Shown one piece after another: positions 11,224 through 25,747 of a stretch of DNA of 64,000 bases. The translations under genes and the position numbers were made by a program. Source of the DNA: Polaribacter sp. NJDZ03 (GTDB lineage: Bacteria; Bacteroidota; Bacteroidia; Flavobacteriales; Flavobacteriaceae); the NCBI RefSeq assembly GCF_019263805.1, contig NZ_CP079195.1, positions 3,087,001 through 3,151,000 of the forward strand, given 5' to 3'. The notes under the pieces were generated by a model that was not told the DNA's origin, did not search any database, and was given only the letters and a program-made list of their open reading frames with translations. Every line of letters starts with the position of its first letter. Positions within the stretch are counted from its first letter, which is position 1.

Positions 11224-11994
11224 CTAACTTTTATAACATACAGGAAGAATTTCATGCTGCATTAAACAAAATCGTTCTAGTTTTTCTGGAGCGATTTTTT
11301 TTGTATAATCTATTTCATCAACCTTAAAACCTATAGAACGTAGTTTGTTAAAATAATCTCTACCATAGACTCTTACATGATCATATTGACCAAATATCTT
11401 AGCGCGTTCTTTTTGATCTGTGATAGAATCGTCTTCAAAAGTATGTTCTCTAGACAATTCTTGCGGAATCTGAAAAATACCAAACCCTCCTTTTTTCATC
11501 ACTCTAAACAATTCTTGCATTGCCTTTGTATCGTCTGTAATGTGTTCTAAAACATGGTTGCAGAAAACAACATCAAAAGAGTTATCATCAAAAGGTAAAT
11601 CGCAAATATCTGCTTTTACATCTGCTATTGGAGATTCTAAATCTGACGTGGTATATTCTAAGTTTTTTTGTTTTCTAAAAACATCTAAAAAACATTGTTC
11701 TGGAGCAATATGTAAAGTCTTTAGTTTTTCTTTTGATGTAAAAAAGTCCGTTTCATCTCTTAAAAACAACCACATTAAGCGATGTCTTTCTAAAGATAGG
11801 GTAGAAGGTGAAAGTGCGTTTTCTCGTTGCTTACCGTATCCGTAAGGTAAAAACTTTCTAAAACTCTTGCCATCTATTGGGTCTGTATATGTATCGCCTT
11901 TTAAAGAAAAAGCAATAATTGGTCGTACTAGATAACTAGCTTTTATTAACCAAGGTCTTGGGATGGTGTTTAGAATGGATTTAAAAATAGACAC
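11224..11994 (-). CDS. Class I SAM-dependent methyltransferase
   Basis: A 256-residue soluble protein. A central Rossmann methyltransferase domain (about 95-200) has LHIAPEQCFLDVF, ADICDLPFDDNSFDVVFCNHVLEH (partial motifs shown are II-IV of the Methyltransf_11 type) and MKKGGFGIFQIP. The N-terminal 70 residues (RPWLIKASYLVRPII, YGYGKQRENALSP) are a flavobacterial extension. The target is unknown; the strongly basic N-terminus and DGKSFRKFLPYG segment do not identify one. The gene stops short of the GxxExxY unit and is probably transcribed alone. Confidence 0.85.
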   Translation of the reverse strand: MSIFKSILNTIPRPWLIKASYLVRPIIAFSLKGDTYTDPIDGKSFRKFLPYGYGKQRENALSPSTLSLERHRLMWLFLRDETDFFTSKEKLKTLHIAPEQCFLDVFRKQKNLEYTTSDLESPIADVKADICDLPFDDNSFDVVFCNHVLEHITDDTKAMQELFRVMKKGGFGIFQIPQELSREHTFEDDSITDQKERAKIFGQYDHVRVYGRDYFNKLRSIGFKVDEIDYTKKIAPEKLERFCLMQHEILPVCYKS

Positions 11995-12456
11995 GAATTA
12001 CACGGATTACACAAAATGAGAGTTACAAAATTACTCTTTTGTAGGTTAAACTATCTTCACCAAAATTAACTAATAAGCCTAGTTTTATCTTTGATGCAGC
12101 TAAATAATTTAGAGTTTGTTTTATATGGCTATTTGTTAAAGATTCAATAGCTTTAATTTCGAGTATTATTTTATTATCGATGACAAAATCAGCAAAATAA
12201 TAATGAGACAATTTTTCTCCTTTATATAATATTTGAAATTTTACTTCTCTTTGATATAAAATTCCTCGTCTTTTAAATTCTATTTCTAAAGCATCACCAT
12301 AAATAATTTCACTAAAACCTTTTCCTAACTCTTTATGAACTTCCATGCAGGAACCAATAATGTTATATGATTCCTGTTTATGTATAAGTTCTGATTTCAA
12401 TTGTTTTTGGTGAAAATAAAGTTTATTTTTTAGTGACAATTAGTGAAATTAGTGTC
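11990..12456. mobile_element. Possible one-gene element: GxxExxY gene framed by imperfect inverted repeats
   Basis: The left flank reads GACACGAATTACACGGATTA (from 11990). The right flank, read from 12456 on the other strand, reads GACACTAATTTCACTAATTG. The two agree at about 15 of the first 20 positions, so the GxxExxY gene sits between imperfect terminal inverted repeats with an internal 9-10-bp rhythm (CAC-n-AATT). The left arm reaches into the first codons of the methyltransferase gene, so the last bases there are shared. No target-site duplication was identified. That this is mobile is an inference from structure. Confidence 0.45.
12023..12439 (-). CDS. GxxExxY protein (PD-(D/E)XK nuclease-like), copy 1
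   Basis: A 138-residue protein with the family signature GKGFSEIIYGDAL (G-x-x-E-x-x-Y). ADFVIDNKIILEIKA fits the Asp...Glu-x-Lys core of the PD-(D/E)XK nuclease fold to which this family is assigned. Function is unproven. The longest frame begins with TTG (12437-12439) inside the right inverted repeat, so the true start is uncertain; the conserved part begins about 20 residues in (ELIHKQESYNIIGSC). It is isolated from its neighbours in content. A related copy lies at 20722-21099. Confidence 0.85.
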   Translation of the reverse strand: MSLKNKLYFHQKQLKSELIHKQESYNIIGSCMEVHKELGKGFSEIIYGDALEIEFKRRGILYQREVKFQILYKGEKLSHYYFADFVIDNKIILEIKAIESLTNSHIKQTLNYLAASKIKLGLLVNFGEDSLTYKRVIL

Positions 12457-19598: not shown

Positions 19599-20546
19599 TT
19601 AAAAATTGATAAAAGTAAACTGAACTTTTAATGTCTCTTTTTTAACTTCTAAATTTTTTAAAAATTGGTGGTGTTGTATTGAGTTTTCATTAAAGGGTCT
19701 GTGAGAAAGTCCCTTTTGAATTACATCTACGTCTTTCATTGTTAATAGAGTATCTTCAGAAAACCAACTGGCAACAAATTTTTCCCAGATATAGTTAATG
19801 GCAGTTTTATTTGGGTGAATCATGTCTTCTGCATAAAATCGATAATCTCTTAATTCATCCATCATAATTTCATAACTCGGAAAATAGAAGGCGTAGCCTC
19901 CATTAAGTATATTGTGAATAGCCGAAATTAAATGAGCTTTACTTTGGGTGTTTTCTATAAAGCCATCTTTTAAATGACGTACAGGAGAAACCGTAAAAAG
20001 TATTTGGATATTTTTATTTATAGATTTTAAAAGTACAAGTATAGCTTCTAAACTCTCAGAAATTTCATCAACAGAAAGTAATTCTTTTAAAAATTTTTTC
20101 TGCGGAATTTTATGGCAATTGGCAACAATTTTATCAGTTTCTATAAATCGATACACCCAAGAAGTGCCTAGTGTAATAACAATGTGTGTGGCTTCTTCTA
20201 ATTGTTTTTTTGTTGATGAAACTGTTGAATTTAGATTGTTTAATAATTCGTTTTTATCAGCAGCACTTAAACTAGAATGTGCATCAAAACAATGCCAACG
20301 TTCATTTTGGAACGTTAAATCTTTTTCTGAATATTCTTTTTCATTAATAGCGTTTGTAATTAAATTTTCAATTGCTTTTGGATGAAAGAGTATTCCGAAT
20401 GGGTTCTGAAGTGATTGAAACTTATAATAAGATAATTTATCTCCTATATTTTCTGAAAAACAAGAGCCTAATAATAGTACCTTAGAATTGTAATCTATGG
20501 CGTTTCTTGTTTCTTTTTTTAAAGGAATTTGAGTTTGGAGTTTCAT
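19599..20546 (-). CDS. GSCFA-domain protein (SGNH-hydrolase-like)
   Basis: A 315-residue protein named after its N-terminal motif LLLGSCFSENIG (GSCF at about 27-30), which places the Ser of an SGNH/GDSL-type esterase. ITLGTSWVYRF and a late DMIHPNKTAINYIWEKF with the expected Asp-x-x-His pair complete the likely catalytic set. The substrate is unknown. I start at the ATG 20544-20546; the frame extends upstream to 20639 but that part runs into the repeat module and has no family similarity. Confidence 0.88.
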   Translation of the reverse strand: MKLQTQIPLKKETRNAIDYNSKVLLLGSCFSENIGDKLSYYKFQSLQNPFGILFHPKAIENLITNAINEKEYSEKDLTFQNERWHCFDAHSSLSAADKNELLNNLNSTVSSTKKQLEEATHIVITLGTSWVYRFIETDKIVANCHKIPQKKFLKELLSVDEISESLEAILVLLKSINKNIQILFTVSPVRHLKDGFIENTQSKAHLISAIHNILNGGYAFYFPSYEIMMDELRDYRFYAEDMIHPNKTAINYIWEKFVASWFSEDTLLTMKDVDVIQKGLSHRPFNENSIQHHQFLKNLEVKKETLKVQFTFINF

Positions 20547-20600
20547 ATTGCAAAGGTGTGGTTTTATTTGTTTCTCGGAAAAAAAAGTAGAGGTTTTTAA

Positions 20601-20722
20601 GTTGTGTGGTGTTTCTCTCGCAAAGACGCTAAGGCGCAAAGTTTTTACAAGTTGTGTGTTTTAGTTTTATGTTAAGCATGGTAATACAACACTCTTTGTG
20701 TCTCTGCTCCTTTGCGAGAAAC
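20601..20722. repeat. Hairpin repeat module A (CGCAAAGACGCTAAGGCGCAAAG family)
   Basis: A direct arm TCTCGCAAAGACGCTAAGGC (20615 on) and an inverted arm ending TCCTTTGCGAGAAACT (to 20722) enclose a spacer beginning ACAAGTTGTGTGTTTTAG. Module B at 21361-21496 has the same order and nearly the same spacer. The inverted arm ends exactly at the stop codon of the GxxExxY gene. Confidence 0.8.
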
Positions 20723-21099
20723 TATAAACTATTTACAATTCTTGTGATTCCGTTTTTAATAAGAGCTTCATTAAAATTAATTAGTAACCCTAGCTTTAAG
20801 TTGGTGATTTTTAAATAGGTTAATAACTGCTTTGGATGAACGGGAGCAATTTTAGCGACAGATTTAAGTTCTAATATTACTTTATTTTCTATGATTAAAT
20901 CAGCTCTAAAACCCAATTCTAACTTAATTTGATCCCAAAATACAGGAAGTACTTTTTGACGTTCTACTTTTAGTTTTTCCTTTTTTAGTTCGTGATACAA
21001 AATTTCTTCATAGACACTTTCTAATAAACCTGGTCCTAATGCAACGTGAATTTGATAACATTTATCTACAACTATTTTAGAAATTTCATTTTCTGTCAT
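20722..21099 (-). CDS. GxxExxY protein (PD-(D/E)XK nuclease-like), copy 2
   Basis: A 125-residue protein with signature GPGLLESVYEEIL (G-x-x-E-x-x-Y). Its ADLIIENKVILELKSV gives the Asp...Glu-x-Lys nuclease-like core. The last third, HPKQLLTYLKITNLKLGLLINFNEALI, matches copy 1 (12023-12439) in layout. Function is unproven. The ATG at 21097-21099 gives a complete domain. It lies between inverted arms of a repeat family, with module A touching its stop codon and a tandem array starting about 60 bp before its ATG. Confidence 0.9.
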   Translation of the reverse strand: MTENEISKIVVDKCYQIHVALGPGLLESVYEEILYHELKKEKLKVERQKVLPVFWDQIKLELGFRADLIIENKVILELKSVAKIAPVHPKQLLTYLKITNLKLGLLINFNEALIKNGITRIVNSL

Positions 21100-21159
21100 A
21101 ATTTTTTATCAAAAGGTACAACGTTTTTTTGTTTTTCTAGAAGGTATAAAGGTTTTATG

Positions 21160-21410
21160 AGTTGTTTGGTGTTTTTTCTCTCGCAAAGCTGCTATGGTGC
21201 AAAGTTTTTTATTGTGTGTTTTTTCTCTCGCAGAGGCGCAAAGGCGCAAAGTTTTTTAAGTTGTGTGTTTTTTTCTCTCGCAGAGACGCTAAGTCGCAAA
21301 GGTTTTTATGTTGTGTGTTTTTTCTCTCGCAGAGGCGCTAAGTCGCAAAGGTTTTTTATGTTGTGTGTTTTTTCTCTCGCAAAGACGCTAAGGCGCAAAG
21401 TTTTTTTACA
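21160..21410. repeat. Tandem array of five ~50-bp units
   Basis: Units begin near 21161, 21212, 21261, 21311 and 21361. Each reads roughly TTGTGTGTTTTTTCTCTCGC, then CAGAGGCGCTAAGTCGCAAA, then a T-run. The first unit is the most diverged. Units abut with no unique spacers. The fifth is the direct arm of module B. A long plus-strand frame through the array is low-complexity and not a gene. Confidence 0.85.
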
Positions 21411-21496
21411 AGTTGTGTGTTTTAGTTGTATGTTTAATTTATATGTTAAACATAATAATACACCACTCTTTGCGTCTCTGCGGCTTTGCGAGAAAC
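21361..21496. repeat. Hairpin repeat module B
   Basis: This is the second copy of the module at 20601-20722: a direct arm CTCGCAAAGACGCTAAGGCG, spacer ACAAGTTGTGTGTTTTAGTT, and an inverted arm TTTGCGTCTCTGCGGCTTTG ending GCGAGAAAC. It ends 4 bp before the alaS stop codon and may act as the alaS terminator. Confidence 0.8.
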
Positions 21497-21499
21497 TTT

Positions 21500-24118
21500 T
21501 TACACCAAATAATCCACCGCTTTCTCTAAAGCTTTCGGAATTCCGCCTGGGTTTTTACCTCCTGCAGTTGCAAAGAAATTTTGTCCACCACCACCACCGT
21601 GTATTAGTTTTCCTAATTCTCTAACTACTTTACCTGCGTCATAACCACGTTCATTTGCCAATTCTTTAGAGATATAACAAGTTAACATCGCTTTATCTTT
21701 TGCAGCAGAAGAAGCAAATAATAAGAATAAATTTTGATGTTCTTTTCCTAGAGAAAAAGCTAAGTTTTTAATTCCGTTTTGGTCTAAATCTACTTTAGTA
21801 GCTAAAAACTGAACGCCATTAATTTCTTGTAATTGGCTTTTTAACTCACCAGATAAATTCTGAGCTTTATCTTTTAATAATTGTTCTATTTGTTTCTGTA
21901 AAGAAGCATTTTCATCCTGTAATTTCTGTACTGCTTTTACAGGTTCTTTTGTGTTGTTTAATAAATCTTTAATTTCAAATAGTGCTTTATTGTTTTCAGA
22001 ATAAAAATCTTTTACAGCGTCGTTTGTAATCGCTTCTATTCTTCTGATACCAGAAGCAACAGCACCTTCAGATTTAATTTTAAAATGCCAAATATCACTG
22101 GTATTTTTTACGTGTGTTCCGCCACAAAGTTCAATAGACTTACCAAACTTAATAGCTCTTACAGTATCACCGTATTTTTCACCAAATAAAGCCATTGCTC
22201 CATCTGCAATTGCTTTTTCCATGGTAATATTTCTACTTTCTTCAAGAGGAAGTTGAGCATCAATTCTTCTGTTTACAAAATTTTCTACCTCACGTAATTC
22301 TTCTACTGTTAATTTAGAAAAATGAGAAAAATCGAAACGTAAATATTTAGAATGTACTGCAGAACCCTTTTGCTCTACATGAACCCCTAAAACCTCTCTT
22401 AAAGCTTGGTGCAATAAATGAGTAGCTGTGTGGTTACATTCTGTTCTAGAACGTTGTTTTTTGTCTACAACCGCTTTAAAAGTTTCGTTAATATGTTTTG
22501 GAAGGTTTTTTGTAAAGTGAATAATAACGTTATTCTCTTTCTTAGTATCTAAAATATACAGTACATCTCCTTGTGTAGTTTCTAAATACCCTTTATCCCC
22601 AACTTGTCCTCCACCTTCTGGATAAAAAGGAGTTAGGTTAAAAACTAATTGATACATTTCACCATCTTTCTTAGAAGTTACTTTTCTGTATCGTGTAACT
22701 TTTACGTTTGCTTCTAAAGCATCATAACCAATAAATTCTTCTATCGGATCATCAACTAAAATAGTCCAATCTTCTGTAGACATTTCGCTTGCAGCTCTAG
22801 ATCTACTTTTTTGTTTTTGTAGTTCTTCTTCAAATCCTTTTTCATCTAAAGTCAATCCTTTTTCAGAAAGAATTAAAGACGTTAAATCTATAGGGAAACC
22901 GTAAGTGTCATACAATTCAAAAGCTTTATCACCAGAAACTTCTTTACCAGAAGTGCTTTCTATAATTCTGTCTAATAATAATAAACCTTGGTCTAAAGTT
23001 CTTAAAAAAGAAGTTTCTTCTTCCTTAATCACATTTTCTATTAATTGTTTTTGTGCTTTTAATTCTGGGAAAGCGTCTCCCATTTTATTGCTTAAAACAT
23101 CTACTAATTTATAAATAAATGGCTCTTTTTTGTTTAAGAATGTAAAACCGTAACGTACTGCACGTCTTAAAATTCTTCTAATAACATAACCAGCACCAGT
23201 ATTACTTGGTAATTGCCCATCTGCAATAGAAAATGCAACCGCTCTAACATGGTCGGAAATTACACGAATAGCAATATCTTGTTCTAAATTTTCACCATAT
23301 TTTACATCGGCAATTGTTTCGATTTCTCTAATAATTGGTGTAAAAATATCTGTGTCGTAATTAGATTGTACATTTTGTAAAACCATACACAAACGTTCAA
23401 ACCCCATTCCGGTATCTATATGTTTGTTAGGTAAATCTACTAAAGTTCCGTTTGCTTTTCTATTGTATTGCATAAAAACTAAGTTCCATATTTCTACAAC
23501 ATGCGGATGATCTTCATTAATTAAAGTTCGTCCATCTACTTTCGCTTTTTCTTCCGCAGAGCGGATATCAATATGAATTTCAGAACACGGTCCGCAAGGT
23601 CCTTGTTCACCCATTTCCCAGAAATTATCGCTTTTGTTTCCTTTTAAGATTCTATCTTCAGCAATAAATTGTTTCCAGATATCAAAGGCTTCGGTATCCA
23701 TTTTTAAGTTATCGTCATCATCAGAACCTTCAAAAACGGTTACATATAAAATGTCTTTATCTATTTTATAAACTTCAGTTAATAACTCCCAAGCCCAAGC
23801 AATTGCTTCTTTCTTAAAATAATCGCCAAAAGACCAGTTTCCTAACATTTCAAATAAAGTATGATGATAGGTGTCATAACCTACTTCTTCCAAATCGTTA
23901 TGTTTACCAGAAACACGTAAACATTTTTGAGAATCAGATATCCTGTTATTTTTTGGAACTCCGTTACCTAAGAAATATTCTTTAAAAGGCGCCATTCCAG
24001 AATTTACAAACATTAAAGTTGGGTCGTCCTTAGTAACCATTGGTGCAGAAGGAACAATTAAATGTGCTTTTTCTTGAAAAAAGTTTAAAAAAGTAGCGCG
24101 AATATCTTGAGATTTCAT
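21500..24118 (-). CDS. alaS: Alanyl-tRNA synthetase
   Basis: Charges tRNA-Ala with alanine and edits mischarged Ser/Gly. The protein is 872 residues, the full bacterial length. Class II core motifs are in the first 240 residues ([30 protein letters not shown]). The editing domain has the zinc motif HTATHLLHQ and CGGTHVKN. The C-terminal DHHA1/C-Ala region ends in the glycine-rich [17 protein letters not shown] start at [10 protein letters not shown] (ATG 24116-24118); a codon 7 residues earlier is less family-like. Confidence 0.97.
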
Positions 24119-24277
24119 AAAAAAAGAAGTTTCCAACAAGTTGGATTATGTTAAATTATTTTTAAAAAAACTGCAAATAAAAAGCAGTTGTAAAACATTT
24201 TGTAAATTCGTAACTTAATAAAATGAGTTTCAAATATAAAACTCTCGTAATACAACAAAAATAGTATATTTATCCAT

Positions 24278-25436: not shown

Positions 25437-25747
25437 TGATTACTGATTACTGATTACTGATTACTGATTACTGATTACTGATTACTGATTACTGATTACT
25501 GATTACTGATTACTGATTACTGATTACTGATTACTGATTACTGATTACTGATTACTGATTACTGATTACTGATTACTGATTACTGATTACTGATTACTGA
25601 TTACTGATTACTGATTACTGATTACTGATTACTGATTACTGATTACTGATTACTGATTACTGATTACTGATTACTGATTACTGATTACTGATTACTGATT
25701 ACTGATTACTGATTACTGATTACTGAATACTGATTACTGAATACTGA
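25437..25747 (+). repeat. Heptanucleotide tandem array, unit TGATTAC, about 44 copies
   Basis: Copies are essentially perfect from 25437 to about 25730, then two TGAATAC variants end the array. It finishes 5 bp before the MerR start codon, so it fills the MerR leader. The unit is not a multiple of 3 and each frame carries stops (TGA on plus, TAA on minus), so it is non-coding. It contains no TAnnTTTG box. Its near-perfect state implies recent expansion, probably by replication slippage. Confidence 0.95.

Follow-up and report, generated by a model that had tools for sequence, protein, structure and literature searches.

A GxxExxY nuclease gene and its clade-specific tandem repeat arms in Polaribacter sp. 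NJDZ03 may form a REPtron-like unit

In a stretch of 64,000 nucleotides (nt) of Polaribacter sp. NJDZ03, comprising positions 3087001–3151000 of its single 4.08-Mb contig and referred to here as the window, a small gene of the GxxExxY family lies among inverted arms of short tandem repeat units in the gap behind alaS. Genes of this family carry such arms in many phyla, and the type of repeat unit follows the protein tree. Gene and arms probably constitute one functional unit, similar in plan to the REPtrons and built on a different enzyme, a nuclease that would recognise its own repeat.

The gene (20722–21099, minus strand) encodes a clade A protein of 125 residues. Its profile score of 141.8 bits for TIGR04256 lies above the curated family cut-off of 35 (E 1.1e-41), and it scores 136.9 bits for PF13366 (PDDEXK_3; cut-off 22, E 5.1e-40). 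PDDEXK_3/GxxExxY is the only domain found in Pfam and NCBIfam, neither of which revealed a transposase domain. The protein family shows the D...(E/D)xK catalytic residues and the core fold of PD-(D/E)XK nucleases: the predicted active-site residues E27, D67, E77 and K79 are present in 223, 224, 224 and 225 of 225 aligned GxxExxY proteins, and the catalytic set of the window protein is predicted to be complete. A sequence search of the PDB gave no match at E ≤ 1. A compact known PD-(D/E)XK fold of about equal size resembles the protein in fold alone, and no function follows from this likeness because other PD-(D/E)XK enzymes score equally well or better. In the Bacteroidota sample (genomes at least 90% complete; E ≤ 0.001), GxxExxY genes were present in 152 of 296, or about half, and the regions studied further from this phylum were picked among the best-scoring matches listed.

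Phage or plasmid cargo was rejected as an explanation for the gene, as tblastn gave no match to the window protein in 50,697 phage records, 8 of 72,556 plasmid records had a match, and none of 75 stretches with the pattern in IMG/VR encoded a relative. The same phage result speaks against a defence or toxic nuclease whose repeats are tolerated or mark self, which we consider improbable. GxxExxY proteins belong to a broad nuclease superfamily with a PD-(D/E)XK core in common with Rpn (PMC5350276, accessible part), and Rpn proteins are described as anti-phage toxin–antitoxin systems (PMC10327210, accessible part). However, no PADLOC model matched the two GxxExxY proteins of the window at E ≤ 0.01, the third protein of the genome showed weak matches to Cas4 and other PD-(D/E)XK models, and the recurrent neighbours are housekeeping genes.

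Each arm at the window gene consists of three 8-nt units of the TCTCGCAAAG.CGCTAAGG.CGCAAAG type, and arms are inverted. A preliminary description of this DNA had placed the gene between two hairpin modules, A and B, with a common repeat. This is borne out by CTCGCAAAGACGCTAAGGCG at 20617–20636 and 21376–21395 and by homology of the modules along their full length, with 85% identity of their 74-nt right halves. Within the window, CGCAAAGACGCTAAGGCG was matched five times at up to three mismatches, compared with no match in 100 shuffles. The left arm of module A (20616–20641, plus strand) reads TC-T-CGCAAAG-A-CGCTAAG-G-CGCAAAG; the right arm (20694–20719, minus strand) is a degenerate copy, which does not end exactly at the GxxExxY stop codon (20722–20724), as had been stated, but two nt short of it. 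Module B comprises a left arm (21375–21400, plus strand) and a right arm (21468–21493, minus strand) 6 nt from the alaS stop codon. The arms and complements described as shared do represent one unit cluster, but in two variants that are not exact complements: right and left arms are 77% complementary over 26 nt in module A, and in module B 71% over 45 nt or 85% over the 26-nt core. Four further arms between the gene and module B (21179–21350) had been missed. They lie at 21179–21204 (degenerate and closest to the start of the gene), 21226–21251, 21276–21301 and 21325–21350 and, together with the module B left arm, form a plus-strand array of five upstream of the gene (21169–21423; period 50 with 5.1 copies and a score of 353 in Tandem Repeats Finder). 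The arms next to the gene are inverted relative to each other, as described, but in the order '< GENE >', the reverse of the commonest order '> GENE <', which is kept by the outermost arms.

The association of the GxxExxY family with short-period repeats, suggested from the two cases in the window, passed the tests proposed beforehand, and neither repeats placed at random with respect to GxxExxY genes nor a syntenic gene without repeats in relatives was seen. The arm pattern has 18 matches in the genome, of which eight are at the gene and ten elsewhere, none of these at another GxxExxY gene; the reversed pattern has no match. In 68 of 80 relatives from a wide range of phyla, CGCNNAG-type units lay as a tandem pair within 700 nt of the gene; in 10 of the 80 such a pair lay elsewhere in the fetched flank. 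Inspection by eye of 195 distinct genes (201 before removal of six duplicates; loci L114 and L115 yielded no gene) gave the generic unit C-R-C-N-D-A-K, of 7 nt with spacers of 1–4 nt, as the recurrent best inverted flank match, and this unit with gaps of 1–5 nt served as search motif. Three units within 300 nt were found at 132 of the 190 genes with flanks of at least 150 nt, on both sides in 81, compared with 11 and 0 of 878 control positions at these loci; the reversed motif was found at 5 of the 190. Because the motif had been defined from the first 195 genes, a held-out set was used (40 regions and 40 genes fetched; the 39 genes with enough flank used). The cluster occurred in 21 of these 39 genes and the reversed motif in three, and a two-unit '> gene <' bracket was present in 20, compared with 0 of 78 controls.

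When first and held-out sets were pooled (226 genes with flanks of at least 300 nt), three-unit clusters within 300 nt accompanied 151 genes, 88 of them on both sides, as against 18 and 0 of 564 flanks of other open reading frames (ORFs) at the same loci. In a motif-free test, 178 of the 226 genes scored above the 95th percentile of the 564 ORF controls, and 105 of them also above the 99th. Beyond Bacteroidota, the sample consisted of the best 80 loci of one scan (82 genes). Three-unit clusters were present in 30 of 34 genes not titled Bacteroidota, including 7/7 from Planctomycetota and 5/6 from Cyanobacteriota; phyla are those of record titles, two genes having none and some titles of metagenome-assembled genomes being doubtful. 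A chance origin of the repeat pattern was rejected on the strength of the shuffles, reversed motif, held-out set and ORF controls. Intergenic slots might also gather repeats and small genes independently of each other, and three-unit clusters were indeed present in 21 of 451 other intergenic gaps. Such a coincidence is extremely unlikely, given that brackets on both flanks distinguish 88/226 genes from 0/564 controls and that unit type is linked to the protein tree.

The genome contains three GxxExxY genes, all of them armed and each with its own unit type: CGCAAAG-N at the window gene described above (copy a), CACGAAT/CACTAAT with period 9 at a second window gene (copy b) and CGCAGATTT/CGCGGATTT at a third gene at 2919387. 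Copy b (12023–12439, minus strand), which is copy 1 of the preliminary description, sits behind a Peptidase_M24 gene that we take to be map. Its arms consist of CACGAAT and CACGGAT (11992–12007, plus strand) and of two CACTAAT units (12439–12454, minus strand), and because the listed TTG start overlaps an arm, the gene probably starts later than listed. The repeat of this copy had been called unrelated to that of the window gene; CACGAAT/CACTAAT and CGCAAAG are instead variants of the one generic unit, and the variant tracks the protein clade. Variants seen at other genes include CACAGAG, CGCAGAT, CACGAAG and CACTAAT. Strong arms of non-CRCNDAK forms occur at some genes as well, for example of the GATTA/AAGGATT type at loci L230 and L245. 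The consensus of 123 A-type arms is TC[TA]-CGCAAAG-N-CGCNRAG-N-CGCAAAG, with one spacer base between units.

Units within one locus agree in a mean of 94% at position 2 and 97% at position 7. Four unit types were defined by A or G at position 2 and G or T at position 7, which labelled 168 genes. On a tree of 235 proteins unit type required 23 changes, compared with a mean of 67.8 and a minimum of 60 in 200 shuffles. Without the 80 broad-scan loci (103 labelled genes), type required 21 changes (shuffled mean 45.8, minimum 40) and period 23 (shuffled mean 44.5, minimum 36). Unit type thus follows the protein tree. Physical linkage by itself would yield some clustering of unit type on the tree; in the broad scan, arms stay with the gene across 42 different upstream-neighbour clusters, counted over 59 genes.

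GxxExxY elements recur in set slots after the stop codons of conserved genes. At the window locus the slot is bounded by alaS (21500–24139, minus strand, tRNA-synt_2c), after which clade A is found repeatedly, and, on the opposite side, by a GSCFA-domain gene (19599–20546, minus strand; the listed ORF spans 19599–20639, with a probable start near 20546). With the window copy left out, alaS was the upstream neighbour of 17 and map (Peptidase_M24) of 14 of the 225 genes with an upstream neighbour, the same methyltransferase gene lying on the other side in all 14 map cases. A relative of the GSCFA-domain gene was the downstream neighbour of 12 of 228 surveyed genes. The alaS–GSCFA gap measures 953 nt in the window. 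Of 14 congeners with both genes placed, twelve have gaps of 1–167 nt and one a gap of 637 nt, all without arms; in the last, the gap is 270 nt and includes an arm pair without a gene. In 14 further loci alaS was out of reach. A-type arms are absent from 13 of these 14 congeners, none of which has the GxxExxY gene, and the gene-less pair of the remaining one is a repeat-only copy of the kind that the preliminary description had proposed to look for.

At the slot between map and the methyltransferase gene, a GxxExxY gene was found in 6 of 29 genomes of the genus, the Polaribacter sp. NJDZ03 genome included. Four of these elements have CAC..AT units and two have CACAGAG units. The 23 genomes without the gene showed gaps of 0–13 nt (12 genomes), 21–86 nt (6) and 207–350 nt (5), gaps at both slots being measured to the start of the tblastn match and good to a few codons, and none of the 23 had even a two-unit cluster. 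Three of the six carriers have a strongly supported sister genome, with gaps of 5, 3 and 1 nt, and presence labels grouped on the tree no more strongly than after shuffling. The simplest account of this pattern is repeated gain, the alternative being repeated exact loss. At a third site, inspected by eye, one congener has the element and one lacks the gene.

Reuse of the alaS and map slots (17/225 and 14/225) and the presence of two element types beside empty sister species at the map slot of one genus would also be expected of a site-specific selfish gene that acts in a homing-like manner, the empty slot being cut and the gene copied in by repair, with the arms as boundaries or regulatory sites. 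A few pairs of alaS-slot loci, in which the gene is more alike than alaS (for example 94% compared with 64%), point the same way. This explanation, which overlaps with the reading that we favour, is possible but rather unlikely. It leaves unexplained the arm units that follow the clade behind 42 neighbour clusters and the arms found far from any GxxExxY gene. In relatives of locus L046, moreover, a 260-nt stretch of alaS exists in two versions (about 88–93% and 67–80% identical to the query) next to a uniform downstream flank, which looks like replacement of alaS with a breakpoint at the slot. Since two alaS versions exist in the genus, the discordance between gene and alaS is weakened, and the discordant pairs may reflect such a replacement.

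From these observations we infer for gene and arms a REPtron-like way of working in which the GxxExxY protein would be a small PD-(D/E)XK DNA endonuclease specific to the tandem unit of its clade, in generic form the 7-nt CRCNDAK, placed every 8–11 nt and often three times per arm. The nuclease would bind the units, probably as duplex DNA, and would cut in the arm or beside it. Repair by copying or strand exchange could then give rise to more arms, gene-less copies and occasional movement of the whole unit, and copies would persist mainly in the short gaps that follow conserved genes, alaS and map among them, after the stop codon.

Several results weigh against this reading. In the motif-free test, 48 of 226 genes did not exceed the 95th control percentile, control clusters reached 4/78 in the held-out set, and 67 of 235 genes have no unit label. 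Target-site duplications gave no signal and no consistent length or offset in 76 simple brackets. The genome-wide number of arms is just loosely tied to the cognate gene. Of 198 Bacteroidota genomes, 18 contain the strict arm pattern, the largest number of copies being 44; the reversed control gave 0 throughout. A gene that matches the window protein at E ≤ 1e-40 was held by 4 of the 9 genomes with at least three strict arms and by 11 of the 189 others (Fisher p 0.002), and the richest genome, G062, has 44 arms and no gene at this threshold; arms may therefore outlive the gene or travel apart from it. At the alaS slot of a comparison genus, presumably Flavobacterium, a GxxExxY gene was found in 10 of 29 rows, and its presence required eight changes on the flank tree, which is no improvement on shuffled labels. 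Among 45 pairs from this site, the gene was more alike than the downstream flank in just 15, and by more than 0.05 in five. At this site the gene appears for the most part to be an old inheritance with losses; repeated invasion was dropped as the explanation, and because the identities fit old presence with losses, the site was not counted as evidence of movement.

The arrangement of the arms recalls a classical transposon, with the arms as terminal inverted repeats and the protein as a cut-and-paste transposase. Of 40 genes flanked on each side by strict A-type arms, 27 have their nearest arms in '> gene <' order, inverted identity reaches 3–5 nt past the units, and presence and absence are sharply defined at the map slot. 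We nevertheless regard a transposon as quite unlikely, as a PD-(D/E)XK nuclease is the only domain found, single and tandem arms are common and the 76 simple brackets carry no duplication signal. The missing duplication alone does not exclude a transposon because elements without duplications exist.

Arms are often immediately adjacent to the gene, preceding its start codon and following its stop codon, and in compact cases (loci L070, L073 and L075) they begin 25–33 nt before the start codon and 4–36 nt after the stop. They might be operators, terminators or RNA hairpins that serve the gene's expression, in which case gene-less copies would be decay products. Paired strands do fold well, with single-stranded z scores of −7.6 for module B and −3.8 for module A, and in some Flavobacterium copies at the L046 site a T-run follows the last unit and its complement, as judged by eye. 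An expression role is still unlikely: no terminator-like site was found at the window locus, and G062 holds 44 arms without a gene at E ≤ 1e-40. Between paired arms, spacer bases agree in just 44%, compared with 31% for shuffled pairs (27 pairs), so that pairing is not strictly kept and a perfect hairpin is not favoured as a conserved feature. Unit positions 5 and 4 match better (93% compared with 76%, and 70% compared with 65%), and this, like the small pairing excess, may reflect shared descent. The sole Rfam match in the window, MIR161, was dismissed as chance (28.1 bits, E 0.007, where the gathering score is 90). The explanations weighed here overlap, and the probabilities that we assign to them do not sum to one.

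Like the REPtrons, which combine a RAYT/TnpA_REP (REP-associated tyrosine transposase) gene with repetitive extragenic palindromic (REP) sequences, GxxExxY loci combine a gene for a DNA-processing enzyme with copies of an intergenic repeat on its flanks, other copies of which are dispersed (PMC8266576 and PMC3733652, accessible parts). By the same accounts, REPtrons have a HUH tyrosine transposase and a GTAG-tagged palindrome, whereas a PD-(D/E)XK nuclease and tandem 7-nt units are found here; one generic unit form, moreover, occurs in records of many phyla. The window locus is not a REPtron because it lacks both hallmarks: PDDEXK_3 is the sole Pfam match, with no HUH transposase, and the 123 A-type arms, the unit type covered by this comparison, have no GTAG-tagged palindrome. 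By analogy, the GxxExxY unit may work like one. TIRYT genes in TIRtrons likewise encode a transposase with its own terminal inverted repeats, some of which are repeated in the genome, but the enzyme is a HUH tyrosine transposase and no tandem 7-nt units are described in the accessible part of that account (PMC3733652). The closest published idea in the accessible literature concerns Rpn (YhgA-like, PF04754), also PD-(D/E)XK nuclease genes, which belong to another Pfam family and have a variable C-terminal tail. For rpnC, two independent insertions into the panC–panD intergenic slot were proposed, Rpn proteins were compared with homing endonucleases and a homing-like action was put forward; the accessible part of that paper does not mention bracketing repeats (PMC5350276). 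Among the open papers searched, a scope that leaves subscription journals aside, those with GxxExxY name the family in passing, and we found neither a function for the genes nor a description of their pairing with repeats. Short repeat strings matched open papers on unrelated subjects, other unit strings had no match, and topic searches on nuclease–repeat pairing returned nothing relevant among the matches listed.

These findings suggest a little-noticed selfish or repeat-handling system. Tentatively, and at somewhat less than even chances, GxxExxY genes with their arms may be a separate class of minimal mobile element, spread over many phyla and compact (about 450–700 bp, one gene, no transposase), whose nuclease reads tandem 7-mers, maintains gene-less repeats and fills slots. 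If so, natural GxxExxY–arm pairs could reveal a protein-to-DNA recognition code, because the 7-mer and its spacing would be set by the protein's own sequence. Partnership with a clade-specific DNA unit would give the GxxExxY nuclease family a testable function and account for a widespread class of intergenic repeats, and it would be a second, independent route by which bacteria hold REP-like repeats. More than 100 natural enzyme–site pairs (168 labelled genes) are at hand to study the choice of DNA by a 125-residue nuclease.

Some further observations concern individual loci. In 15 other rows of the Flavobacterium alaS slot, an insert with the tandem unit xxCTAAG is present and a GxxExxY gene is not. 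By eye, these inserts (loci L294, L297, L299–L304 and others) have inverted arms with units every 8–9 nt, and the arms enclose a terminator-like repeat and a second palindromic repeat; no GxxExxY clade with exactly this unit stood out. Six Nostocales loci (L067, L068, L073, L075, L077 and L084) share one site with the same two neighbours and all have CGC..AG units, which suggests long maintenance. CGCAGAT-type elements recur next to an ABC-2 type permease gene (L002, L197, L214 and L228), and in the genome of the window and in G337 such an element separates the permease gene from an ABC ATPase gene. Tandem GxxExxY pairs at L205 and L214 are 99% and 97% identical in ungapped protein comparison and lie 740 and 541 nt apart. 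Gene-less single arms in the genome of the window (L004, L005 and L006, near position 1500) adjoin short-period repeats, GCATACT and GCAGTAA, and the arm at L016 adjoins CACATAG units. Finally, the window contains at 25437–25747 a near-perfect heptamer array of 44 TGATTAC copies with 99% matches.
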